Assembly (NCBI GenBank): GCA_032622095.1
Contig: CP136069.1
Span: 9,936,036-10,000,035 of the forward strand
Length of the DNA stretch: 64,000 bases
Direction of reading: 5' to 3'
From: Siphonodentalium dalli
Lineage: Eukaryota; Mollusca; Scaphopoda; Gadilida; Siphonodentaliidae
Shown: positions 641-32,195 of the stretch, in pieces
Layout of the letters: each line of letters begins with the position of its first letter
Position numbering within the stretch: the stretch's first letter is position 1
Program-made: the position numbers and the translations under genes
Notes under the pieces: generated by a model
Told to the model about the DNA's origin: nothing
What the model saw: only the letters and a program-made list of their open reading frames with translations
The model's database searches: none

Positions 641-869
641 TTTTTTCATCATGGCAAAAATTCCAATGATTGTTTGTGATAAAGAGCGTCTATGCTTCCA
701 TCGTATATCATAAAGAGCGTTTTAACTTAAGATTGTTACGTAAAATGTATGGATGCTTTCCTGGACTTTCCCGATGCCTCTGCCATGCCAATAATGGTGT
801 TTGGCAGTGTTTTCCCTATTTTATATGCCTGGTAACTTGTTAAGCTGAAAATCCAATTTTCTCTAAAAA
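641..869. other. Intergenic, with two ATAAAGAGCG motifs
   Basis: No coding signal. The motif ATAAAGAGCGT occurs twice (about 678 and 708). It recurs in the dispersed repeats at 15.4, 47.3 and 53.4 kb. Confidence 0.35.
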
Positions 870-1494
870 AATCCCTCTTCAAATGTCATTTTAACACATA
901 TCCAGAATCTGTCGGAAATCCCACTATATTGCAACGGAAAGGCCGTTACGTGTGTAACATATATGGACATGCCCTTGGCTCGAGTGTATTCACAATTTGA
1001 ACGTAGAGAGTATTGATTTTGACACCCCGCTCTCAGTCTATGTACGTCTAGTTGTTTAAGTTGATGATCACTAGTTGCCAAAAATATGTACGCCAAGTTG
1101 TGATGATGGGATTTGTGTGCAAAGACGAACCCATGAATTAGGTATCCATATTATAGATACTCGGCCTCCCGATGGTCATTATTAACCTTCAATCACAAGA
1201 GAAAGGTACTGTTCCGCTCCACATCCGTTTTCCGAATCTGGGATAGGGACCCAGCCCATCAAAACTGCTTCAAATGACAATTTTACTCAGTTTTCCTGAT
1301 CTATCTTTTCTTATCAATGTTCCGTATCATGATTATAAAAGCATTCCCACTGTTATATACCAACAGCACTGTAAAGTTTCAAAACAATTCTTCAATAAAT
1401 GTGGGCTGTACGGTATGCTGATGGATTGACATTTTAAATCCAATATGGCTTCAGGTGCCCATGTTTGTTTTAAACAAATTTTGCGGAACAATGA

Positions 1495-1885
1495 AGGCTC
1501 CCATCTAGAGGTCACGTCGAAGATCCATATGGAGTTCGGTGACGATTGGATGAGAAATGTGACCTGTAAGGTGTGCTAAAGGATTTGGTCATACAAAGAG
1601 TAAAATCCAAGATGGCCAAAATGGCAGCCATTTATTTTACAAAATTTGGGAAAAATCGAAGGCACCCATCGAGAGGTCACAACGAAGATCCATATACAGA
1701 TTGGTGATGATCGGATGAATGATAAGCTCTGCATTTTGTGTTAAAGGATTTAGTAATGCAAAGAGTAATATCCAAGATGGCTGCCAGTGGCCATATTTTT
1801 CATAAAAAATCATTCCAATTTGTCAGCTCCCATCTATAGATGATCCTCGACCCATATACCGAATAGCGTTGAAATCGGTCAATGT
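1495..1885. repeat. About 174-bp tandem repeat, two and a third copies
   Basis: Copies start near 1495, 1665 and 1828. Shared blocks are CTCCCATCTAGAGGTCAC or CACCCATCGAGAGGTCAC, then GAAGATCCATAT, GATTGGATGA or GATCGGATGA, AAAGGATTT and TCCAAGATGGC. The third copy is truncated. It lies inside the 2.1-kb element and has no coding content. Confidence 0.65.
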
Positions 1886-1950
1886 TTGTTTTAACACATT
1901 TGTTTTATTTTATTACAGTTTTTTAATAGTCTATTTTTATTTGAAGAGTT

Positions 1951-2354
1951 AAAAGTACTCAATCCGAAATGTCGCTCGCAAATCTGCGCAAATTACTATT
2001 TCCTTGGCATCGGCGGTAAAGATATTTGATTCGGGTCGCGGAACCGACCCATCAAAGCTCAGAGTGATCGGATATCGATGTTTGAATTCTATTATTAAAA
2101 TTTTAGGTGACCCACTAAATAGTCGACAAGAAGACTTATCTGAACAAATCGCGGATGAAGATGGATAACTCTAAAAACAAGTGACTTTTTGTGTCAGATA
2201 TTTGACAATAACATGTTTTGGGCAATTTTATACTATAGTTGACTGTGATTAACATTAGTTTTTGGCAATTACTCGATTTTTATAGCTGAAGCGGCATTTA
2301 AACAAAAAATGTTGTTGTTGGAATCTGATGACATGGATCGGATTGAGTACATTT
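1951..2354. mobile_element. MITE, family shared with 42545-43017
   Basis: The left end AAGTACTCAATCCG pairs with the right end CGGATTGAGTACATT. Internal blocks GATATTTGATTCGGGTCG, CCCATCAAAGCTCAGAG and GATGGATAACTCTAAAA recur in the 473-bp copy at 42.5 kb. It is about 404 bp, has no ORF, and sits inside the 2.1-kb element. Confidence 0.75.
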
Positions 2355-3066
2355 ACGTAAAGAGTTTACATTTATTTGAAGAATCTATTATTGTGTTATG
2401 CTTTCATTTACACCAGGTTGAATAAATGATTTTAATAGAACTATTTAAATACGAGCCTTTCTATGCCAATGTGCATTGATAGATCCTTGAGCATTTATAA
2501 ATTAGCAAGCTGACATTTTTATTACCCCTTGGTGTCATTCCTCATTATTAACTGCTGGTGAACTCAAACCCCCTAACAAGGGTTGAGTGCATACATATTA
2601 AATAAAAGAAGCATTCTTAAAACCTTCTGTCCCATTTATTTTGAAGAAAAATGACTCTAGGAACAAAAGGAAAAATGTGTAAACAGGGCTGCAGAATCAA
2701 CCACCGCCCCGCCTAGTGTTCGGAAAACAATTGCAGACCCCACCCCTGACCTATACACAATTTTCTCAGAGAATACAACATATATCCTCAACCCCCAAAT
2801 ACAGTTTTGTTACATGCGATGTCGAATAAAAGTAGCTAAATAGTATCGGAATACATTGTTTGATTCAGGCAGAGTCTATAAGTTCAATGACGTGACATTT
2901 CAAAGACATTGTTATGTTTAAGTGGGACGAAAGGAACATATCATTACTGTACGATTCCTGTATAACATCGCAACTAGTATTGTCGTCGTACACAACTAGG
3001 CGTACATAGACTGACGAGCGGGGTGTCCAAATAAATACTCTCTACTTTTAAATTGTGAATACACGG

Positions 3067-4010
3067 GACATGACAATCTGCGGGATGGGATGGGATATGG
3101 GACAAAACGACAATCTGCGGGACAGAATTTCAAATTGCGTGGGACGGCCGATATCTCGAGGAATACAGGGCGTAGGGGGCTCATTTTGGTGTCTAACGAA
3201 AGGCCCGCATTCGCCCTATCCACACATATTAACTCCGCTACACCAGAAGTTGCATTATTTGATCGACAACTGACCTAACATGGGGTGGAATTTGGGATAG
3301 CATGACAATCTGCGGGACGGGATTTTCAAATTGCGTGGGACGGCCGATATCTCGAGGAATACAGCGCGTAGAGGGCTCCTTTTGGTGTCCACATTCGCCC
3401 TATCCACATATTAACCCCGTCACTGACCGGACACCGGAAGGTACATTATTCGGTCGACAACTGACCTAACATAAAATGCCAGAAACACGAAAAACTGCGT
3501 TCGACATTAATGTTTAGAATTTAGATTTCTCGATGAATACACTAGAAAACAACAAGTTTGAGGTATCAAATAACGCAGTGGAATACTGTACATTCGTTTT
3601 TAGCTACAATATGGCTGTTTTATTGCGAATATTGTAATGGCGAACACGCAAACACGCTCCGATAAAACAGCTAAAAATAGACTCGATGTTTACAATTACA
3701 GGATCGATTTCAGCCGGTATATTCAATATAATGGGGCGTATAGTATATCAAAATGTAGAATTAGACACAGGGAATGTATTTTTTCCAAATGGGTCCAACA
3801 GGCGGTGAAATTGTTGCAGAAATTCGCTCCAAGATATTCGCACTTATTTTTATTTCAGTTGTGACTAAAAGCCCAGATACCGGAGCCCAGCGACTAAAAG
3901 CCAAGTTACAAAATAGATCAACTGGTTTGAACGAATGAATATGTCAATGGTAACACTATTCAAAAGAATATTCAAATCAAATAGTGTTTATAGACTTAAA
4001 AACTTATGTG
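3067..4010 (+). repeat. Unique part of left arm with a 200-bp direct duplication
   Basis: Two diverged copies of about 190 bp (about 3108-3290 and 3308-3475) share GACAATCTGCGGGAC, CGTGGGACGGCCGATATCTC, TTTTGGTGTC and TCGACAACTGACCTAACAT. The mirror copies are at 10140-10345 and 10346-10550. The rest (3480-4010) includes a 75-codon ORF at 3637-3864, which is duplicated inverted at 9750-9977. I do not recognise it, and it has no splice or promoter context, so I do not call a gene. Confidence 0.7.
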
Positions 4011-7000
4011 TCCGCCATTCATATATGCGGTGAAGTTCTCATATTATCTCCCAGTAATACGCGGTGGAGGTTCTCATATGAACATATTATCTGCCGGTCA
4101 TACATGGTGGAGGTTCATATTATCCGCCGGTCATACGCGAGGGAAGTTTTCTTATTATCCTCCAGTCATACGCTGGGGAGGTTCTGATATGAACATATTA
4201 TCTGCCGGTCATATGCGGTGGAGGTTCATATTATCCACCGGTCATACGCGAGGGAGGTTCTCATATTGTCCTCCGGTCACACGATGGGGAGGTTCTCATA
4301 TGAACATATTAACTGCCGGTCATACGCGAGGGAGGTTCTCATATCATCCACCGGTTATACGTGAGGGAGGTTCTCATATTGTCATCCGGTCATACATACA
4401 TGTAGGGGAGGTTCTCATATGAACATATTATCTGCCGGTCATACGCGGTGGAGGTTCATATTATCCGCCGGTCATACGCGAGGGAGGTTCTCATATTATC
4501 CTCCGGTCATACGTGGGGGAGGTTCTGATATGAACATATTATTCGCTGGTTATACGTGGTGGAGGTTCATGTTATCCACCGGTCATATGCGAGGGAGGTT
4601 CTCATATTATCCTCCGGTCATACATGGGGGAGGTTCTGATATGAACATATTATTCGCCGGTCATACGCGGTGGAGGTTCATATTATCCACCGATCATACA
4701 TGGTGGAGGTTCTCATATGAACATATTATCCACCGGTCATACGCGGTGGAGGTTCATATTATCCGCCGGTCATACGCAAGGGAAGTTCTCATATTATCCT
4801 CCGATCATATGTGGGGGAGGTTCTGATATGAACATATTATCCGCCGGTCATACGCGGTGGAGGTTTATATTATCCGCCGGTCATGTGCGAGGGAGGTTCT
4901 CATATTATCCACCGGTCATACGCGAGGGAGGTTCTCATATTATCCTCCGGTCATACGTTGGGGAGGTTCTCATATGAACATATTATCCGCCGGTCATACG
5001 CGGTGGAGGTTCATATTATCCGCCGGTCATACGCGAGGGAAGTTTTCTTATTATCCTCCAGTCATACGCGGGGGAGGTTCTGATATGAACATATTATTCG
5101 CCGGTCATACGCAGTGGAGGTTCATACTATCCACCGGTCATACATGGTGGAAGTTCACATATGAACATATAATCCGCAGGTAATACGCGGTGGAGGTTCA
5201 TATTATCTGCCGGTCATACACGGTGGAGGTTATCATATGAACATATTATTCGCCGGTCATACGCAGTGGAGGTTCATATTATCCACCGGTCATACACGGT
5301 GGAAGTTCTCATATGAACATATTATCCGCCAGTCATACGCGGTGGAGGTTCATATTATCTGCCGGTCATACACGGTGGAGGTTCTCATATGAACATATTA
5401 TCCACCGGTCATACGCAGTGGAGGTTCATATTATCCACCGGTCATACACGGTGGAAGTTCTCATATGCACATATTATCCGCCAGTCATACGCGGTGGAGG
5501 TTCATATTATCTGCCGGTCATACACGGTGGAGGTTCTCATATGAACATATTATCCGCCGGTCATACGCGGTGGAGGTTCATATTATCCGCCGGTCATGCG
5601 CGAGGGAGGTTCTCATATTATCCACCGGTCATACGCGAGGGAGGTTCTCATATTATCCTCCGGTCATACGTTGGGGAGGTTCTCATATGAACATATTATC
5701 CGCCGGTCATACGCGGTGGAGGTTCATATTATCCGCCGGTCATACGCGAGGGAAGTTTTCTAATTATCCTCCAGTCATACGCGGGGGAGGTTCTGATATG
5801 AACATATTATCTGGCGGTCATATGCGGTGGAGGTTCATATTATCCACCGGTCATACGCGAGGGAGGTTCTCATATTATCCTCCGGTCATACGATGGGGGG
5901 GGGGTTCTCATATGAACATATTAACTGTCGGTCATACGCGAGGGAGGTTCTCATATTATCCACCGGTTATACGTGAGGGAGGTTCTCATATTATCATCCG
6001 GTCATACATAGGGGAGGTTCTCATATGAACATATTATCTGCCGGTCATACGCAGTGGAGATTCATATTATCCGCCGGTCATACGCGAGGGAGGTTCTCAT
6101 ATTATCCTCCGGTCATACGTGGGGGAGGTTCTGATATGAACATATTATTCGCTGGTCATACGCGGTGGAGGTTCATGTTATCCACCGGTCATATGCGAGG
6201 GAGGTTCTCATATTATCCTCCGGTCATACATGGGGGAGGTTCTCATATGAACATATTATCCGCCAGTCATACGCGGTGGAGGTTCATATTATCTGCCGGT
6301 CATACACGGTGGAGGTTCTCATATGAACATATTATCCACCGGTCATACGCAGTGGAGGTTCATATTATCCACCGGTCATACGCAGTGGAGGTTCATATTA
6401 TCCACCGGTCATACGCGAGGGAGGTTCTCATATTATCCTCCGGTCATACGCGAGGGAGGTTCTCATATTATCCTCCGGTCATACGTGGGGGAGGTTCTGA
6501 TATGAACATATTATTCGCTGGTCATACGCGATGGAGGTTCATGTTATCCACCGGTCATATGCGAGGGAGGTTCTCATATTATCCTCCGGTCATACATGGG
6601 GGAGGTTCTCATATGAACATATTATCCGCCAGTCATACGCGGTGGAGGTTCATATTATCTGCCGGTCATACACGGTGGAGGTTCTCATATGAACATATTA
6701 TCCACCGGTCATACGCAGTGGAGGTTCATATTATCCACCGATCATACGCAGTGGAGGTTCATATTATCCACCGGTCATACACGGTGGAAGTTCTCATATG
6801 AACATATTATCCGCCAGTCATACGCGGTGGAGGTTCATATTATCTGCCGGTCATATGCGAGGGAAGTTCTCATATTATCCTCTGATCATATGTGGGGGAG
6901 GTTCTGATATGAACATATTATCCGCCGGTCATACACGGTGGGGGTTCATATTATCCGCCGGTCATACGCGAGGGAGGTTCTCATATTTTCCACCGGTCAT

Positions 7001-7414
7001 ACGCGAGGGAGGTTCTTATATTATCCTCCGGTCATACGGTGGGGAGGTTCTCATATGAACATATTATCCGCCGGTCATACGCGGTGGAGGTTCATATTAT
7101 CCGCCGGTCATACGCGAGGGAGGTTCTCATATTATCCTCCGGTCATACGTTGGGGAGGTTCTCATATGAACATATTATCCGCCGGTCATACGCGGTGGAG
7201 GTTCATATTATCCGCCGATCATACGCGAGGGAGGTTCTCATATTATCCTTCGGTCATATGTGGGGGAGGTTCTGATATGAACATATTATCCGCCGGTCAT
7301 ACGCGGTGGAGGTTCATATTATCAACCGGTCATACGCGAGGGAAGTTCTCATTTTATCCTCCGATCATACGCGGGGGAGGTTCTGATATGAACATATTAT
7401 CTGCCGGTCATATC
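4011..7414 (+). repeat. Minisatellite, three monomers in a 111-bp higher-order unit (forward block)
   Basis: The monomers are about 33, 35 and 43 bp. All are built on CGGTCATACGCG-GGAGGTTC-TCATATTATCC. The 43-bp type adds ATATGAACATATTATCC. The three in order make 111 bp, or 37 codons, so several frames stay open for up to 258 codons with a repeating peptide. Order varies in the inner part (pairs of 33-mers, tandem 35-mers), showing local expansion. I do not regard the ORFs as genes: the period is divisible by three, and unrelated peptides are open in other frames. Confidence 0.9.
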
Positions 7415-9605
7415 CTCCCTCGGGTGTGACCGGTGGATAATATGAGAACCTCCCTCGCATATGACCGGCAGATAATATGTTCATATGAGAACCTCCACCG
7501 CATATGACCGGTGGATAATATGAACCTCCACCGCGTATGACCGGCAGATAATATGTTCATATCAGAACCTCCCACACCTATGACCGAAGGATAATATGAG
7601 AACTTCCCTCGCGGATAATATGAACCTCCACCGCGTATGACCGGCGGATAATATGTTCATATGAGAACCTCCACCACGTATGACCGGCGGATAATATGTT
7701 CATATGAGAACCTCCACTGCGTATGACCGGCGGATAATATGTTCATATGAGAACCTCCCCTACGTATGACCGGTGGATAATATGAACCTCCACCGTGTAT
7801 GACCGGCGGATAATATGTTCATATCAGAACCTCCCCCACATATGACCGAAGGATAATATGAGAACCTCCCTCACGTATGATCGGCGGATAATATGAACCT
7901 CCACCGCGTATGACCGGCGGATAATATGTTCATATGAGAACCTCCCCAACGTATGACCGGAGGATAATATGAGAACCTCCCTCATGTATGACCGGTGGAT
8001 AATATGAGAACCTCCCTCGTGCATGACCGGTGGATAATATGAACCTCCACCGCGTATGACCGGCGGATATTATGTTCATATGAGAACCTCCACCGTGTAT
8101 GACCGGCAGATAATATGAACCTCCACCGCGTATGACTGGCGGATAATATGTTCATATGAGAACTTCCACCGTGTATGACCGGTGGATAATATGAACCTCC
8201 ACTGCGTATGACCGGAGGATAATATGTTCATATGAGAACCTCCACCGTGTATGACCGGCAGATAATATGAACCTCCACCGCGTATGACTGGCGGATAATA
8301 TGTTCATATGAGAACTTCAACCGTGTATGACCGGTGGATAATATGAACCTCCACTGCGTATGACCGGCGAATAATATGTTCATATGAGAACCTCCACCGT
8401 GTATGACCGGCAGATAATATGAACCTCCACCGCGTATTACTGGCGGATTATATGTTCATATGAGAACTTCCACCATGTATGACCGGTGGATAGTATGAAC
8501 CTCTACTGCGTATGACCGGCGAATAATATGTTCATATCAGAACCTCCCCCGCGTATGACTGGAGGATAATAAGAAAACTTCCCTCGCGTATGACCGGCGG
8601 ATAATATGAACCTCCACCGCGTATGACCGGCGGATAATATGTTCATATGAGAACCTCCCCAACGTATGACCGGAGGATAATATGAGAACCTCCCTCGCGT
8701 ATGACCGGTGGATAATATGAGAACCTCCCTCGCGCATGACCGGCGGATAATATGAACCTCCACCGCGTATGACCGGCGGATAATATGTTCATATCAGAAC
8801 CTCCCCCACATATGATCGGAGGATAATATGAGAACTTCCCTTGCGTATGACCGGCGGATAATATGAACCTCCACCGCGTATGACCGGTGGATAATATGTT
8901 CATATGAGAACCTCCACCGTGTATGACCGGTGGATAATATGAACCTCCACCGCGTATGACCGGCGAATAATATGTTCATATCAGAACCTCCCCCATGTAT
9001 GACCGGAGGATAATATGAGAACCTCCCTCGCATATGACCGGTGGATAACATGAACCTCCACCACGTATGACCAGCGAATAATATGTTCATATCAGAACCT
9101 CCCCCACGTATGACCGGAGGATAATATGAGAACCTCCCTCGCGTATGACCGGCGGATAATATGAACCTCCACCGCGTATGACCGGCAGATAATATGTTCA
9201 TATGAGAACCTCCCCTATGTATGACCGGATGATAATATGAGAACCTCCCTCACGTATAACCGGTGGATAATATGAGAACCTCCCTCGCGTATGACCGGCA
9301 GTTAATATGTTCATATGAGAACCTCCCCATCGTATGACCGGAGGATAATATGAGAACCTCCCTCGCGTATGACCGGTGGATAATATGAACCTCCACCGCA
9401 TATGACCGGCAGATAATATGTTCATATCAGAACCTCCCCAGCGTATGACTGGAGGATAATAAGAAAACTTCCCTCGCGTATGACCGGCGGATAATATGAA
9501 CCTCCACCATGTATGACCGGCAGATAATATGTTCATATGAGAACCTCCACCGCGTATTACTGGGAGATAATATGAGAACTTCACCGCATATATGAATGGC
9601 GGACA
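7415..9605 (-). repeat. Same minisatellite, inverted block
   Basis: The array is the reverse complement of the block at 4011-7414. The switch happens near 7414-7424, where the GCCGGTCAT of a forward unit runs into CCTCCCTCGGG of a reversed unit. The outer 1.1-1.4 kb (about 8460-9605) mirrors 4011-5180 unit by unit. The inner part is about 1.2 kb shorter than in the left arm, so the arms have expanded or contracted independently near the centre. Confidence 0.9.
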
Positions 9606-10670
9606 CATAAGTTTTTAAGTCTATAAACACTATTTGATTTGAATATTCTTTTGAATAGTCTTATCATTGACATATTCATTCGTTCAAACCAGTTGATCTA
9701 TTTTGTAACTTGGCTTTTAGTCGCTGGGCTCCGGTATCTGGGCTTTTAGTCACAACTGAAATACAAATAAGTGCGAATATCTTGGAGCGAATTTCTGCAA
9801 CAATTTCACCGCCTGTTGGACCCATTTGGAAAAAATACATTCCCTGTGTCTAATTCTACATTTTGATATACTATACGCCCCATTATATTGAATATACCGG
9901 CTGAAATCGATCCTGTAATTGTAAACATCGAGTCTATTTTTAGCTGTTTTATCGGAGCGTGTTTGCGTGTTCGCCATTACAATATTCGCAATAAAACAGC
10001 CATATTGTAGCTAAAAACGAATGTACAGTATTCCACTGCGTTATTTGATACCTAAAACTTGTTGTTTGCTAGTGTATTCATCGAGAAATCTAAATTCTAA
10101 ACATTAATGTCGAACGCAGTTTTTCGTGTTTCTGGCATTTCATGTTAGGTCAGTTGTCGACCGAATAATGTACCTTCCGGTGTCCGGTCAGTGACGGGGT
10201 TAATATGTTTGGATAGGGAGAATGTGGACCTTTCGTGAGACACCAAAAGGAGCCCTCTACGCGCTGTATTCCTCGAGATATCGGCCGTCCCACGCAATTT
10301 GAAAATCCCGTCCCGCAGATTGTCATGCTATCCCAAATTCCACCCCATGTTAGGTCAGTTGTCGATCAAATAATGCAACTTCTGGTGTCCGGTCAGTGGC
10401 GGGGTTAATATGTGTGGATAGGGCGAATGTGGGCCTTTCGTTAGACACCAAAATGAGCCCCCTACGCCCTGTATTCCTCGAGATATCGGCCGTCCCACGT
10501 AATTTGAAATTCTGTCCCGCAGATTGTCGTTTTGTCCCATATCCCATCCCATCCCGCAGATTGTCATGTCAAGGGCATGTCGATATATGTTGCACACATA
10601 ACGGCTTTTCCGTTGCAATATAGATGCTGGCTACATGTATGTGTTAAAATGACATTTGAAGAGGGAATTT
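7415..10670 (-). repeat. Right arm of the giant inverted repeat
   Basis: It holds the reversed minisatellite (to 9605), the unique arm segment (9606-10560) and the outer 100 bp (10567-10670). It lacks the 2.1-kb insertion and so preserves the ancestral arm. Beyond about 10670 similarity to the left flank drops to a few scattered matches, and no clear terminal target duplication is seen. Confidence 0.85.
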
Positions 10671-11049
10671 TTGCGAGAAATGTTTTTTCTGAAGTGATCA
10701 AAGGCCGCTTTTATTTATTAAACAGAGTCTTTGGCTCAAATGGAGCCCGCTTACGATCGGCAAATGTGTATGTACAATTTATAATTACGTTTATAGATGT
10801 GTTGCGACCGTATGTCCGTCTGAAACCTTAATTTTGTGGTGTTGTTGTGATATTTCTGTCACATTTACGTTCTAAAAATAGCATCTTTCGTCTTTTCGAA
10901 AACAACTTCCGATTTATTGTTTGTACGGTTTATACACTGTGATAGGGGATTCATGTGCAATATAGCATTGATATTTATTCAGCCGCGAATGACGTTGCGT
11001 TCCATGTAAACGGAGATGTGACATTAGGAATTTAGGGTACGATAAGATA
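10671..11049. other. No recognisable feature
   Basis: The flank of the big palindrome. There are short open frames only, with no splice-site pair, motif or repeat that I recognise. Confidence 0.4.
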
Positions 11050-13224: not shown

Positions 13225-13766
13225 CAAAGATGACGACCCCATGTCTCCTGATATGCTTCTACCAACGGAGCGTCCTCATTGGTCGATCCAACCAGGTGAC
13301 ATGATAAACACCGATATGGATTTTGGAACGGGTAGATGTGTCCCATTGGCCGGTAATCTTTCGCTAAGGTGTTCTCACACATAAGTACACGAATTATATA
13401 TGAAATAGCAGTCAGCTATGAATTTATCTATTTCTTACAATAAATCATCCGCAAATCTCATTGAAACGTAGTCATTTAACCAACTTTTTGCTTCAGCACT
13501 TGGCTATAACTACGGAATGCCATTCGTTTCACTAACATATGCGTTCTCTCCAGTAAAGACAGATTATGATTAAGAGAGTGAGTAGATTGTTTAGATATTT
13601 CACTACGAGCGATTTAATTTTATATGACTTGTATTTACACGTATATGATACCATAATGTATGCATGTTTCGATACTAGACGAGATCGGCTCTATTCCCGA
13701 CAAGGGCGACAATCGGGACCACTTTTCAAGCTTGATCTGAATTGATGGACATCTCAATGTGCCATA

Positions 13767-14143
13767 CCGATCGATATATGGCCATTCCGATCGATACATG
13801 GCCATTCCGATCGATACATGGCCATTCCGATCGATACATGGCCATTCCGATCGTTTCATGGCCATTTCGATCGATACATGGCCATTCCGATCGATACATG
13901 GCCCTTCAGATCGATACATGGCCATTCCGATCGATACATGACCATTCCGATCGATACATGACCATTCCGATCGATACATGGCCATTCCGATCGATACATG
14001 ACCATTCCGATCGATATATGGCCATTCCGATCAATACATGGCCATTCCGATCGATACATGGCCATTCCGATCGATACATGGCCATTCCAATCGATACATG
14101 GCCATATCGATACATGGCCATTCCGATCGATACATGACCATAC
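13767..14143. repeat. 20-bp tandem array, about 19 copies
   Basis: The consensus unit is CGATCGATACATGGCCATTC. Each unit contains CGATCG (or ATCGAT) and TGGCCA palindromes, so single strands can pair within and between units. One unit near 14101 has lost about 4 bp. Frames are open on both strands because 60 bp returns to frame and the unit has no stop. I do not call these ORFs genes. Confidence 0.95.
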
Positions 14144-16365: not shown

Positions 16366-18722
16366 TTAGAATAAATTCATTCTCATGTGATATATCCATA
16401 AACAATGTTAGAATAAATTCAGTCTAAGATGATATATCAATCCACAATGTTATAATAAATTCAGTCTAATATGATATATCCATCCACAATGTAAGAATAA
16501 ATTCAGTCTAATATGATATATCCATCCACAATGTAAGAATAAATTCAGTCTAATATGATATATCCATCCACAATGTAAGAATAAATTCAGTCTAAGGTGA
16601 TATATCCATCCACAATGTTAGAATAAATTCAGTCTAAGGTGATATATCCACCCACAATGTTAGAATCAATTCAGTCTAATGTGATATATCCATCCACAGT
16701 GTTAGAATAAATTCAGTCTAATGTGATATATCCATCCACAATGTAATAATAAATTCAGTTTAATGTGATATATTCATCCACAATGTTAGAATAAATTCAG
16801 TATAATGTGATATATTCATCCACAGTGTTAGAATAAATTCAGTCTAAGTTGATATATTCATCCACAATGTTAGAATAAATTCAGTCTAATGTGATATATC
16901 CATCCACAATGTAAGAATAAATTCAGTCTAATGTGATATATCCACACACAATGTTAGAATAAATTCAGTCTAAGGTGATATATCCACCCACAATGTTAGA
17001 ATAAATTCAGTCTAATGTGATATATCCATCTACAGTGTTAGAATAAATTCAGTCTAAGGTGATATATTCATTCATAATGTTAGAATAAATTCAGTCTAAG
17101 GTGATATATCCATACACAATGTTCGAATAAATTCAGTCTAATGTCATACATCCATACGCAATGTTAGAATAAATTCAGTCTAAGTTGATATATTCTTCCA
17201 CAATGTTAGAATAAATTCAGTCTAAGGTGATATATTCATCCACAATGTTAGAATAAATTCAGCCTAAGGTGATATATTCATCCACATTGTTAGAACAAAT
17301 TCAGTCTAATGTGATATATTCATCCACAATGTTAGAATAAATTCAGTCTAAGTTGATATATTCATCCACAATGTTAGAATACATTTAGTCTAAGGTGATA
17401 TAGTCATCCACACTGTTAGAATAAATTCAGTCTAATGTGATATATCCATCCACAGTGTTAGAATAAATTCAGTTTAAGGTGATATATCATACACAATGTT
17501 ACAATAAATTCAGTCTAATGTGATATATCCATCCACAATGTTATAATAAATTCAGTCTAGGATGATATATCCATCCACAATGTTAGAATAAATTCAGTCT
17601 AATGTGATATATTCATCCACAGTGTTAGAATAAATTCAGTCTAAGTTGATATATTCATCCACAATGTTAGAATAAATTCAGTCTAATGTGATATATCCAT
17701 CCACAATGTAATAATAAACTCAGTTTAATGTGATATATCCATCCACAATGTTTGAATAAATTCAGTCTAATGTGATATATCCATCCACAGTGTTAGAATA
17801 AATTCAGTCTAATGTGATATATCCATCCACAATGTTATAATAAATTAAGTCTAAGGTGATATATCCATCCACAATGTAATAATAAATTCAGTTTGATGTG
17901 ATATATCCATCCACAATGTTAGAATAAATTCAGTCCAATGTGATATATCCATCCACAGTGTTAGAATAAATTCAGTCTAATGTGATATATCCATCCACAG
18001 TGTTAGAATAAATTCAGTTTAATGTGATAGATCCATCCACAATGTTAGAATAAATTCAGTCTAATGTGATATATCCATCCACAATGTTAGAATAAATTCA
18101 GTCTAATGTGATATATCCATCCACAGTGTTAGAATAAATTCAGTCTAATGTGATAGATCCATCCACAATGTTAGAATAAATTCAGTCTAATGTGATACAT
18201 CCATCCACAATGTTAGAATACATTCAGTCTAATGTGATATATCCATCCACAGTGTTAGAATAAATTCAGTCTAAGATGATATATCCATCCACAATGTTAG
18301 AATAAATTCAGTCTAATGTGATATATTCATCCACAGTGTTAGAATAAATTCAGTCTAAGTTGATATATTCATCCACAATGTTAGAATAAATTTAGTCTAA
18401 GGTGATATATTCATCCACACTGTTAGAATAAATTCAGTCTAATGTGATATATCCATCCACAGTGTTAGAATAAATTCAGTTTAAGGTGATATATCATACA
18501 CACTGTTACAATAAATTCAGTCTAATGTGATATATCCATACACAATGTTACAATAAATTCAGTCTAATGTGATATATCCATACACAATGTTAGAATAAAT
18601 TCAGTCTAAGGTGATATATCCATACACAATGTTAGAATAAATTCAGAATGGTTCAGTCTAAGGTGATATATCCATCCACAATGTTAGAATACATTCAGTC
18701 TAAGGTGATATATCCATTCACA
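16366..18722. repeat. 42-bp satellite, about 56 copies
   Basis: The unit is built on GTTAGAATAAATTCAG, TCTAATGTGATATATCC and ATCCACAAT, and the period is exactly 42. Variants alternate (AAGGTGATATATTC, ACAGTGTTAG). A 41-bp unit with TATCATACACA occurs near 17480 and 18490, inside two blocks that match unit by unit. This shows a duplication with a period of about 1007 bp (24 units). The last unit runs into a candidate exon. Confidence 0.95.
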
Positions 18723-18807
18723 ATGTTTCTGATGATATTTTCTTTCTCTTTGATGACTTCCTTCATCTGTTGGCTTATTTCCTTGATTCGGTCCTGCGCT
18801 TTTCCCT
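18722..18807 (-). CDS. Candidate coding exon with coiled-coil character
   Basis: On the minus strand the acceptor is a T-rich tract ending TTTTAG at 18808. The exon reads (AG)GKAQDRIKEISQQMKEVIKE and then KENIIRNI, a charged heptad-like helix typical of coiled coils. The donor GTGAAT starts at 18721, inside the first unit of the 42-bp satellite, so the satellite would begin right at the 5' splice site of the next intron. The exon begins with two bases of a split codon and ends in phase 0. It may belong to the same minus-strand gene as 30108-30337 and 32430-32529, but the phase would require another exon between them. The protein is unidentified. Confidence 0.4.
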
Positions 18808-22660: not shown

Positions 22661-22809
22661 ACTGAAACGATCACTATCGGACAACGTTCGCATGACCCCA
22701 ACGGAACGATAACTCAAACATGTGTGGGTACTTTCGCACGACGAACGGATCCGATGAACGGATCCGATTATTTTCGCTAACGCATACGCAAGCATGTGTG
22801 GATAGCTTT

Positions 22810-23500
22810 AGGACGACGGACAGACGATTTATTAGGACGACGGACAGACGATTCATTAGGACGACGGACAGACGATTCATTAGGACGACGGACAGACGAT
22901 TCATTAGGACGACGGACAGACGATTCATTAGGACGACGGACAGACGATTCATTAGGACGACGGACAGACGATTCATTAGGACGACGGACAGACGATTCAT
23001 TAGGACGACGGACAGACGATTCATTAGGACGACGGACAGACGATTCATTAGGACGACGGACAGACGATTCATTAGGACGACGGACGGATGATTCATTGGG
23101 ACGACGGACAGACGATTCATTAGGACGACGGTCAGACGATTCATTAGGACAGACGATTCATTAGGACGACGGACAGATGATTCATTAGGACGACGGACAG
23201 ACGATTCATTAGGACGACGGACAGACGATTCATTAGGACGACGGACAGACGATTCATTAGGACGACGGACAGACGATTCATTAGGACGACGGACGGATGA
23301 TTCATTGGGACGACGGACGGACGATTCATTAGGACGACGGTCAGACGATTCATTAGGACGACGGACAGACGATTCATTAGGACGACGGACAGACGATTCA
23401 TTAGGACGACGGACAGACGATTCATTAGGATGACGGACGGATGATTCATTAGGACGACGGTCAGACGATTCATTAGGACGACGGTCAGACGATTCATTAT
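22810..23500. repeat. 24-bp minisatellite, about 28 copies
   Basis: The consensus is GGACGACGGACAGACGATTC followed by ATTA. The 24-bp period equals 8 codons, so long ORFs of repeating RTTDRRFI or GRRTDDSL arise on both strands. One unit near 23148 lacks 7 bp and breaks the frame. Variants GGACGGATGATTCATTGGG mark two duplicated sub-blocks (about 23078 and 23291). Confidence 0.95.
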
Positions 23501-28105: not shown

Positions 28106-29880
28106 ATGGAGTTTAACGAGATATCATACGATGATCTGATGCAGCTATTTCGAGAAGATGACGATTTGCATGATGTTGTGAGCAGAATCGACAATGAAAA
28201 CAGTTCTAAAACTATTGAAAATGTTTTTGTTGAAAGTCAGTGTACTAGTACTACTACTACTTCTCAAATGTTGCCTGTGGATGCCACGATCTCAGCCAGT
28301 GTTTCCGATTATGGGTCCTCAGTTCCACTATGGGGATGGAGAAGGAAGAACAGTGAAACTAACAACATTATCAATACAACTGCAAGTACTTCAACTGCTA
28401 TTATAAATACCACTGCTGTTAGTGTTACATCACCACAGTCACAGACATAAGTAAGTGCTCAGCAGAGACCAACAATGGCAACATCCAAAGCACCAACATT
28501 TGTTAATGTTCAGGACTCTGACAAAGATGACTTTGTATCAAGTATGCAAAATGAAAACACAGTAAAGAAAAAACTCAAGTTGTGATAAGGGCCTTTACAA
28601 TATTTCTGTCCCAAAGGAATGAATTTCGGGCTATTGAAACTATTGACCCAATTCACATGGATAATTATATAGGGTCCTTCATATTATCTGTCAGGAAAGC
28701 AGATGGATCTGATTATGAGCCGGATTCATTGACATCCTACCACCGCGGTATCGATAGATATTTGAGGGAGAAGAAATATCCATATCGTATATGTATGGAC
28801 CGCGAATTTGAAAGTTCCAGGACAGTATTGGCAAGCAAGAGGAAACAGTTGAAAGCAGCAGGCAAAGGAAATCGGCCAAATGCAGCTGAACCGATAACAG
28901 AAAGCGAGGAAGTTATTCTCAGGGAAAGAGATGTGTTAAGTGTTGATTGTCCCTATGGTTTGCAAAATCTAATGTGGTATAACAATGGGAAATTGTTCGG
29001 AATGCGCACTGGAAAAGAGCAACATAGTTTGCGGTGGGATGACATTATGCTCGAGAAAGATGCAATGGAATAGAATATTTGAAACACAATGAAAGGACAA
29101 CAAAAACTCGAACAGGAGAAAGTGCCAGTACTCACGACGGAGCCTTCAGTCCAAAAGCTTTCGCAATCCCTGGGGTTTCAGCTACAGAATGTCCAGTGGC
29201 AGCGTACAAAGTATTCGCATCAAAGCGTCCACTGAACACTTTGCAGCCTGATTCACCATTCTACATCCAAGTGAATCATAATCGCAAACCAGATTCACCT
29301 TTCTGGTATAAGGCTCAACTGATGGGTGAACACGCCTTATCCAAAATAATGAAGAAAATGGCAGAAAAGGGTCAACTTCCTGGTAGAAAGACCAATAACT
29401 GCGTCAGGAAAACAACATGCACTCGATTACTTCACAATGACATTACTCCAAACACCATTGCACAGCTTTCAGGTCACAGAAATATTGCCAGTGTAAATAA
29501 TTATTCTGTTGCGTCAGTGGAAATGCAACGGAAAATATCGGATATTCTCTGCATAGCACCAAAACGAACACTAACTTCCGACTCCAATGTTGAAAATTCG
29601 AATTCCGTTCCAACTAGAATTGTTGATACACGTGACTGACACTGAGAATGCAAGCCATAATTCGATTGTTGAAGTGACGGAATGTGCGGAATTCATTAAA
29701 ACAGTGAATGGACAGTCATCCCATGCAATGCCTCTCGCAAACAATATTACCATCCAAGGAAACTGCACCATCAAATGTTACAATTATCATGTTAAAAGTG
29801 ACAATTATGTTGAACATTCGAAACGGAAAAATCGTCGCCTCATCATTGAATCGGATTCCAGTCAAAGCGAAATTGAATAG
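28106..29880 (+). pseudogene. Crypton-type tyrosine recombinase (DUF3504-like), broken
   Basis: The family cuts and rejoins DNA through a phosphotyrosine to mobilise Crypton elements; related domains were domesticated in animal ZMYM, QRICH1 and KIAA1958-type proteins. Order: an acidic N-terminus (28106-28450), a nonsense TAA at 28448, the same frame on to 28585, a frame change, then the recombinase. Seen in the 28582-29073 segment: EPDSLTSYHRGIDRYL, GKGNRPNAAEP and FGMRTGKEQ (first catalytic Arg, residue 142). A one-base loss near 29065 shifts the frame. The 29079-29639 segment has TKTRTG, CPV, RP, FWYKAQ, TNNCVRKT, SGHRN and NYS (Tyr 142). The usual His of HxxR appears as Asn (29397-29399). 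A second frameshift near 29630 leads to a tail with NNITIQGNCTI ending at 29880. Four breaks mean it is inactive as read. No terminal repeats are seen, as expected for Cryptons. Confidence 0.88.
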
Positions 29881-30337: not shown

Positions 30338-30545
30338 CTGAAAATATTGCAAATGTTACATGATACACATTTGAACGCATAGTGGGAAATAAAAGGCCGT
30401 TGCCCACACCAGAAACTTTTCGAAAACGTCCCAAAAGTGCGCTGCATACATCGGACCGATAATATATGTTAGCTTCAGAGACAGAGATAATATTTTAATT
30501 TGGCAAAACTAAAGTAAAGGGCCGTCAGAAATGCTGATTTTACTA

Positions 30546-32195
30546 ATGTGTCGACCAGCGAGGCATACAGTCGAAAGGGTGTGTGGGTGTATTACCAATG
30601 TGTCGACCAGCGAGGTCGACCAGCCGAAAGGGCGTGTGGGTGTATTACCAATGTGTCGACCAGCGAGGTATACAGCCGAAAGGACGTGTGTCTGCATTAC
30701 CAATGTGTCGACCAGCGAAGTATACAGCCGAAATTGCGTGTGGCTGTATTACTAATGTGTCGACCAGCAATGCATACAACCGAAAGGGCGTGTGGTGTAT
30801 TACTAATGTGTCGGCCCGCGAGGTATACAGCCGAAAGGGCAAGTGGTGTATTACTAATGTGTCGACCAGCGAGGTATACAGCCGAAAGGGCGTTTGGGTG
30901 TATTACTAATGTGTCGACCAGCGAGGCATACATCCGACAGGGCGTGTGGCTGTATTACTAATGATTGTGTCGACCAGCGATGCATACAGCCGAAAGGGCG
31001 TGTGGCTGTATTACTAATGTGTCGACCAGCGAGGTATACAGCCGAAAGGGCGTTTGTGTGTATTACTAATGTGTCGACCAGCGAGACATACAGCCGAAAG
31101 GGCGTGTGGCTGTATTACTAATGTGTCGACCAGCCAGGCATACAGCCGAAAGGGCGTGTGGGTGTTTTTACTAATGTTTCGACCAGCGAGGCATACATCG
31201 AAAGGGCGTGTGGCTGTATTACTAATGTGTCGACCAGCGAGGCATACAGTCGAAAGGGCGTGTGGGTGTATTAATAATGTGTCGACCAGCGAGGTCTACA
31301 GCCGAAAGGGCGTGTGGGTGTATTACCAATGTGTCGACCAGCGAGGTATACAGCCGAAAGGGCGTGTGTCTGCATTACTAATGTGTCGACCAGCGAAGTA
31401 TACAGCCGAAATTGCGTGTGGCTGTATTACTAATGTGTCGACCAGCGATGCATACAGCCGAAAGGGCGTGTGGTGTATTACTAATGTGTCGACCAGCGAG
31501 GTATACAGCCGAAAGGGCGTTTGGTGTATTATTAATGTGTCGACCAGCGAGGCATACATCCGACAGGGCGTGTGGCTGTATTACTAATGTGTCGACCAGC
31601 GATGCATACAGCCGAAAGGGCGTGTGGCTGTATTACTAAGGTGTCGACCAGCGAGGTATACAGCCGAAAGGGCGTTTGGGTGTATTACTAATGTGTCGAC
31701 CAGCGAGACATACAGCCGAAAGGGCGTGTGGCTGTATTACTAATGTGTCGACCAGCCAGGCATACAACCGAAAGGGCGTGTGGGTGTTTTTACTAATGTT
31801 TCGACCAGCGAGGCATACATCCGAAAGGGCGTGTGGCTGTATTACTAATGTGTCGACCATCGAGGCATACAGCCGAAAGGGCGTGTGGGTGTATTACTAA
31901 TGTGTCGACCAGATAAACATACATCCGATTGGGCGGTGTGGCTGTATTGCGAATGTTTTTAACAGAGAGATCGAGAGAGAGGCATATAGCTTATTTGGTG
32001 ATGTGGCTGTAGTACTAATGTGTCGACCAGAGAGGCATAGCCTTGCATATTGGGCGGTGTGGCTATATTACTAATGTCTCGACCAGAGAGGTATGGAACA
32101 CATTGGGTGATGCGGCTGCTTTACTAACGTGTACCCATTGGGCGGTGTATCGACCAGGGAGACACAGAGTCCATTGGGCGGTGTGGCTTCTCACA
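30546..32195. repeat. 52-bp minisatellite in the intron, about 26 good copies plus a decayed tail
   Basis: The unit is built on TGTGTCGACCAGCGAGG, CATACAGCCGAAAGGGCG and TGTGGCTGTATTACTAA, with a 52-bp period and a SalI palindrome GTCGAC in each copy. Sub-blocks recur about 626-678 bp apart (for example CCGAAATTGCG at 30728 and 31406, ACATCCGACAGGG at 30930 and 31556), showing a 12-13-unit duplication. Units after about 31915 are diverged and lengthened. The ORFs across it are by-products. Confidence 0.93.

Follow-up and report, generated by a model that had tools for sequence, protein, structure and literature searches.

The window analysed here, a 64,000-nucleotide stretch of the genome of the scaphopod mollusc Siphonodentalium dalli (C9:9936036-10000035 of a nine-contig, 2.23-Gb genome), contains two long inverted arms that meet within a minisatellite. 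The evidence supports well the conclusion that positions 3065-10570 are one copy of a high-copy foldback DNA transposon, belonging to a family not known before but of a known kind. Our reading as a whole, which we hold with considerable confidence, is that the family descends from a single founder with unequal arms, that in the window copy the right arm was converted onto the left, and that this copy was inserted into the right inverted repeat of another element, here called E2.

A 7.5-kb foldback element with a mirrored minisatellite

The limits of the copy (3065-10570, 7.5 kb, no strand assigned) were set by the termini, flanks, and target duplications of other copies and by two terminus matches in the window. 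From either end inward, the element consists of the terminus GGGACATGACAATC..., two subrepeats of ~205 bp, ~530 bp of unique sequence, and a minisatellite that reverses direction at 7412/7413, close to the position of about 7414 given in an earlier, sequence-only reading of this DNA. The left arm, on the plus strand, comprises an outer domain with two tandem ~205-bp subrepeats (3065-3480; self-comparison and other copies), an inner unique domain with bases of the long-arm type from 3840 on (3481-4034; comparison with other copies), and an array of 33-, 35-, and 43-bp units (4035-7412; unit alignment to the right array). On the minus strand, the right arm comprises an array of the long type that is the likely donor of the left one (7413-9591; unit alignment), an inner unique domain (9592-10139; arm comparison), and an outer domain again made of two tandem ~205-bp subrepeats (10140-10570; self-comparison and other copies).

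When the window is compared with itself, the inverted arms are colinear from 3067 to ~5700 against 10570 to ~7915, with 96 to 100% identity per 100-bp block, and are out of register further in; the segments 3637-3864 and 9750-9977, rightly described before as about 99% alike, differ at one base. The array units of 43, 33, and 35 bp are grouped as higher-order repeats of 111 and 76 bp. The left array measures 3,378 bp and the right array 2,179 bp, which agrees with the 3.4 and 2.2 kb reported earlier. Their outer 42 units pair one to one across the arms with 0 to 2 edits each, apart from one 6-bp insertion, and the left array is the longer one through internal duplications (for example, 6074-6404 versus 6440-6770, with two edits). 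Long terminal inverted repeats made largely of tandem repeats are the structure by which foldback elements are recognized. No coding region was found in 3065-10570, and an Rfam search of the window gave no match.

Dispersed copies share termini and 8-bp target duplications

The terminus was counted throughout the genome at no more than one mismatch, giving 1,723 matches compared with 0 for the reversed pattern used as a control. A 228-bp inner-domain query yielded 1,507 first-look candidates genome-wide, and the 40 of these that were scored are all at least 99% identical to it. For a comparison of anatomy, we fetched 20 stretches around such matches (loci fetched from the same genome are labeled with L-numbers, such as L009 or L037). 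The complete copies among them are composed of outer domain, inner domain (~530 bp), plus array, minus array, inner domain, and outer domain, and their flanks diverge directly outside GGGACATGACAATCTGCGGG. Copies differ from one another by 2.2% on average, and the family is young.

Target duplications were examined at 26 loci of at least 3 kb, of which 13, including the window, had both ends with enough flank. A perfect 8-bp duplication was present in 10 of the 12 other copies, corresponding to nine independent sites because L018 and L023 are one insertion that was duplicated with its flanks. The remaining two copies match at 7 of 8 positions (L069) or with one extra base (L010). In a cross-locus control pairing left and right flanks of different loci, matches of at least 7 of 8 occurred in 2 of 156 comparisons, which is explained by the duplication of the L018/L023 locus. 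The family as such, though not the window copy by itself, thus has the dispersed copies with common ends and target duplications that characterize the foldback class. At the window copy, nothing is missing from the left end, which directly follows GAATACAC, the sequence expected as its target duplication (3057-3064, plus strand; flank comparison), and the right end lacks its last two bases. The sequence-only reading had proposed a search for further copies with shared end points and target duplications; such copies exist, and they bear out its suggestion of a very large foldback element where 3065-10570 is concerned.

A shared palindrome centre points to one asymmetric founder

The palindrome centre (7406-7433, no strand assigned; centre alignment and genome-wide count) is common to the family: its 28-bp motif, searched genome-wide with at most one mismatch, occurs 229 times, compared with 0 for the reversed control. 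Together with the terminus count, this places the repeat well outside what chance would produce. Four of the 20 fetched stretches hold no centre. In the other 16, all 18 centres that were aligned have the same inverted fusion as the window, with scattered substitutions only, and these copies therefore share one founder. We measured 36 other centres, taken from the 16 stretches found by similarity to the window and from 20 entries picked from the centre list. In 35 of these, the array of one arm begins 269 to 308 bp from the centre, the exception being L037 at 1,269 bp, and the length of the long arm varies widely among copies. Unequal arrays, of about 0.3 kb versus 0.5 kb or more, are thus the rule in the family, and the nearly balanced window copy is the odd one. 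The inequality of the window arrays had earlier been held to argue against an assembly mirror; such an artefact is indeed rejected below, but the inequality itself is a property of the family. The two kinds of arm, short (S-type) and long (L-type), are told apart almost without exception by bases at 4025-4056 in a set of 15 short and 13 long arms that excludes L024 and the window.

The centre arose once, and we propose that it did so by an inverted fusion inside the minisatellite, which would have produced a founder with a short array of ~0.3 kb and a long array. From there, the asymmetric founder spread to about 200 centre-bearing places. The cutting and pasting of its termini was presumably the work of a transposase supplied in trans from another locus, which would have left the 8-bp duplications seen in other copies.

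L018 and L023 carry the centre motif four times within one array, every occurrence being accompanied by a short stretch of the opposite arm; this array is amplified in blocks of 1.1 to 1.7 kb that include the palindrome centre. At L072 (111-3397), the same terminus accompanies other internal minisatellites, with 55-bp and 37-bp units, and the array that the terminal repeats carry seems to differ among subfamilies.

A probable signature of conversion by the right arm in the left arm of the window copy

Although it occupies the side of the centre where other copies have their short arm, the window left arm has the L-type base at each of the 13 diagnostic positions listed. Compared by unit, 42 of 42 units of its array are colinear with the right array of the same copy; the 13 other long arrays compared by unit, two of which are a duplicated pair, reach at most 28. 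The marker CATTTTATCC lies 56 bp from the centre in this arm versus 167 bp in 17 other short arms, a shift of exactly 111 bp, or one higher-order unit, and the segment from this marker at 7350 to 7412 (plus strand; marker comparison) is a putative leftover, next to the centre, of the arm that was originally short. L037 likewise combines an L-type outer part with short-arm sequence at the centre, and the reverse is found in L024, where the long arm starts with about 100 bp of S-type array. The colinear arrays are best explained, we infer, by gene conversion between the arms, whose signature in the sequence they would be. The tract copied from the right, long arm onto the left would begin at some point left of 3840 and stop no more than about 70 bp short of the centre; this would have turned a 0.3-kb left array into a long one, later enlarged by internal duplication. 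The earlier suggestion of a recent inverted duplication with gene conversion thus keeps its second half, while segmental duplication is refuted for the family (see below).

Several observations weigh against this interpretation. Of 38 other loci, 19 lack the marker CATTTTATCC in the short arm and 3 have it in a right arm; as it does not distinguish the arms strictly, it supports a short-arm remnant without proving it. The inner-domain arms of the window are 99.1% identical, and L009, L010, and L021, whose arms are of unlike type, reach 99.2 to 99.4%, so that inner-domain identity reflects the youth of the family, and the arguments for conversion come from the boundary and the array. By edits per unit, the window right array resembles L009 (6 in 27 units) more closely than it does the left array of its own copy (26 in 42 units, six of these edits being one insertion), and only 5 of the 13 compared arrays had at least 42 units. 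Set against six other arms, and excluding 7 rows at the alignment start, 6 rows of the one 6-bp insertion, and 2 end rows, the substitutions between the window arms comprise 12 that are left derived and 2 that are right derived (two-sided sign test, about 0.013); all nine polarized substitutions in the array are transitions. Three of the left-arm alleles recur in other copies, and the left-arm 6-bp insertion allele was found once elsewhere, at C6:180613004. The left-arm excess may reflect mutagenic copying or a mixed donor. In view of this bias and of the alleles shared with other copies, the copy's own right arm is the most likely donor, not a proven one. The reading as a whole also has to accommodate the missing right partner of the window copy's target duplication and the finding that no autonomous partner or transposase was seen in 20 sampled pieces from C1, the interiors of terminus pairs lacking a canonical centre.

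Alternative explanations

The same bias of 12 to 2 substitutions, together with the presence of the three left alleles and the 6-bp insertion allele in other copies, would be accommodated if the left arm had been converted by, or exchanged with, another copy of the family rather than its own right arm. We regard such an ectopic event as unlikely, given that 42 of 42 units are colinear with the copy's own right array, compared with 28 for the best of 13 others, and that, in the other copy with the 6-bp allele, no run of at least six units is colinear at no more than one edit each. Alternatively, the window copy could represent an ancestral symmetric form, the common short arm having come from a later deletion in one daughter lineage. 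Near-equal arms of the long type are what one would expect right after an inverted duplication, and a few other copies have long-type boundaries on both sides; however, the window left arm retains short-arm sequence by the centre, nearer to it than usual by exactly one 111-bp unit; L037, too, joins a long-type outer part to short-type sequence at the centre; and the match of the left array to its own right array extends over more units than any other array compared achieves. A symmetric ancestor is therefore very unlikely.

An assembly artefact, a mirror at a haplotype junction, had also been raised by the sequence-only reading, and we reject it as highly improbable: the centre motif is found 229 times in the genome, the flanks are not the same from copy to copy, 8-bp target duplications accompany the copies, and the window arms differ by private substitutions and by the 6-bp insertion. 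That some loci have been duplicated together with their flanks (L018/L023, and L010/L011 on one side) might suggest a segmental inverted duplication instead of a transposon, but the perfect 8-bp duplications that adjoin one shared terminus at nine independent sites refute this for the family and reduce its probability to almost nothing.

Arm-type switches in other copies

Conversion between the arms of an asymmetric foldback, as preferred here for the window copy, can be looked for in other copies through the S- and L-type boundaries. With at most two mismatches, the boundary motifs have 468 (S) and 278 (L) matches genome-wide, and the controls have none. Arms were typed on C1 and C2 by exact matches only; 41 centres were examinable after 12 clustered C2 centres were left out. 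The short side could be typed in 30 of the 41 and is S in 26 (25 within 400 bp of the centre, one at 1,240 bp) and L in 4, at 310, 423, 1,273, and 2,547 bp. On the long side, typed in 29, the boundary is L in 27 and S in 2, and the remaining arms have no exact boundary within 9 kb. With 4 of 30 short and 2 of 29 long sides switched, roughly one typed arm in ten has the boundary of the other arm, and switching occurs in both directions.

Conversion between palindrome arms is usually inferred with the starting state unknown; here, the asymmetric founder is known and converted arms are recognizable by type. With about 200 dispersed centres, one could count within a single genome how often, in which direction, and over what length arms are converted, and how this relates to minisatellite growth. 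A more speculative idea, which we think doubtful, is that the repair of breaks in or beside the palindrome copies long tracts, with frequent errors, from the long arm into the short one, so that foldbacks would grow minisatellites; the left-arm excess of changes would then be a scar of mutagenic break-induced synthesis. If that were true, about 200 daughters of the founder, each at its own site, would amount to replicate experiments on inter-arm copying.

The clustered centres, 12 of the 100 listed, lie within 19 kb (C2:87385198-87404392) on a single strand and represent a local amplification of the foldback array. Facing pairs of S boundaries with no canonical centre also occur among the listed matches (C1:128294109-128295998, C2:88902438-88903816, and others); these close pairs imply one or more further structural classes in the family.

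The foldback lies within the right inverted repeat of E2

The sequence-only reading had described a near-10-kb inverted repeat at 870-10670. Its inverted arms are real, but the element is 3065-10570, and the outer tips and about 984-3064 belong to E2, so that the size was overstated. The tips (858-977 versus 10570-10680) are only 91% alike, ~2.1 kb separates the left tip from the left arm, and the 858-977 tip has no match in any of the 20 stretches around other copies. A single 10-kb element with a nested 2.1-kb insertion at 978-3066 was rejected on the grounds that the tips are unmatched in those stretches and that E2 copies read through.

E2 is a long-inverted-repeat element with ends CACAGTGTATAAACC. 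Most of it occupies 830-3064 (plus strand), its left end being cut or diverged near 830-858, and the rest of its right inverted repeat lies beyond the foldback at 10571-10941 (plus strand), where the outer limit was set by visual comparison with E2 left ends. When the foldback is disregarded, the two flanks align as inverted repeats of one element, with a score of 288 compared with a maximum of 57 in 200 letter shuffles; seven bases are missing at the joint. E2 is abundant (3,400 first-look candidates), the 40 that were scored being the window at 100% and 39 others at 88 to 93%. Elsewhere, 10 of 10 fetched right ends are uninterrupted at the point where the window holds the foldback, which was therefore inserted into the right terminal inverted repeat of E2. 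A small deletion probably removed the right-hand target duplication of the window copy. More generally, an inverted repeat can look longer than it is when one transposon lands within the inverted repeat of another.

Four further minisatellites lie elsewhere in the window, at 13761-14141, 16366-18727, 22808-23499, and 30540-31956, with periods of 20, 42, 24, and 52 bp, respectively. No further foldback terminus was found in the window within three mismatches, so these arrays are not in intact copies of the foldback family.

Transposase search and superfamily

The 20 interior pieces sampled on C1 comprise 13 with the array, one (L063) with only 74 bp of the inner domain, and 6 with neither. Four of these 6 were looked at more closely. 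L070 has the foldback structure, one of its inner domains being interrupted by an insertion; in L069, the arms are ~91% alike, pieces of a long interspersed nuclear element (LINE) reverse transcriptase are present, and a search for tandem repeats found none; L071 consists of a direct repeat of 5.6 kb that is truncated; and L072 is the locus with other minisatellites described above. A protein-family search of 10 window frames gave matches in two, which form a tyrosine-recombinase-like gene far from the foldback. This gene (28555-29636) is split over two overlapping frames with DUF3504 and Phage_integrase matches and may come from a Crypton-like element. Retrotransposon gag-like frames (Ty3 capsid model; E value of 2.6e-06, just under the cut-off) stand beside a short foldback array at L022 (3588-6244).

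Transposons of the hAT superfamily make 8-bp target duplications of the form nTnnnnAn. Judged by eye, this form fits one of the nine distinct perfect duplications (TTATATAG). Galileo, of the P superfamily, has 7-bp target duplications (PMC3573991), which the 8 bp here do not fit. Excerpts from two other sources state that Mutator-like target duplications are 8 to 11 bp (PMC6446971) and that most foldbacks seem to belong to Mutator-like elements (PMC4079207). The 8 bp seen in 10 of 12 copies falls within this range, which is not specific to the superfamily, and the Mutator-like elements are a candidate superfamily for the foldback family.

Comparison with known foldback systems

Among titles and abstract openings, we found no description of this foldback family, which is weak evidence of absence since subscription literature lay mostly outside that scope. 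The comparisons that follow rest on excerpts from the cited sources. Rehavkus and Phantom, both Mutator-like, include elements with a minisatellite near one end, and Phantom duplications are 8 to 10 bp; unlike here, a transposase is encoded and the minisatellite is one-sided rather than mirrored (PMC6446971). The Tm1 Mutator/Foldback elements of root-knot nematodes likewise have composite inverted repeats of variable length with internal repeats and duplications of 8 to 10 bp, but their duplications are mostly 9 bp, their internal motif is ~14 bp, and some copies have a putative transposase (PMC3169594).

Galileo of Drosophila resembles the present family in its long inverted repeats and in a number of internal tandem repeats that is unequal between the ends of a copy, and its chimeric copies are ascribed to recombination and conversion; unequal end repeats and chimeras so explained are thus already reported for that element, whose bounding sequences are 7 bp in contrast to 8 bp here (PMC3573991). 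Tetris of Drosophila virilis also has terminal inverted repeats with a terminal domain and internal tandem repeats that expand, target duplications of 8 to 10 bp, and, in the text excerpted, no transposase found; its homogenization is suggested to occur by unequal crossing over or gene conversion, as conversion is proposed here (PMC4079207). Tetris differs in its unit, which is ~220 bp (PMC4079207) rather than 33, 35, or 43 bp; in the present family, moreover, a single centre common to the copies joins the arrays without a spacer, and one array is typically only ~0.3 kb long.

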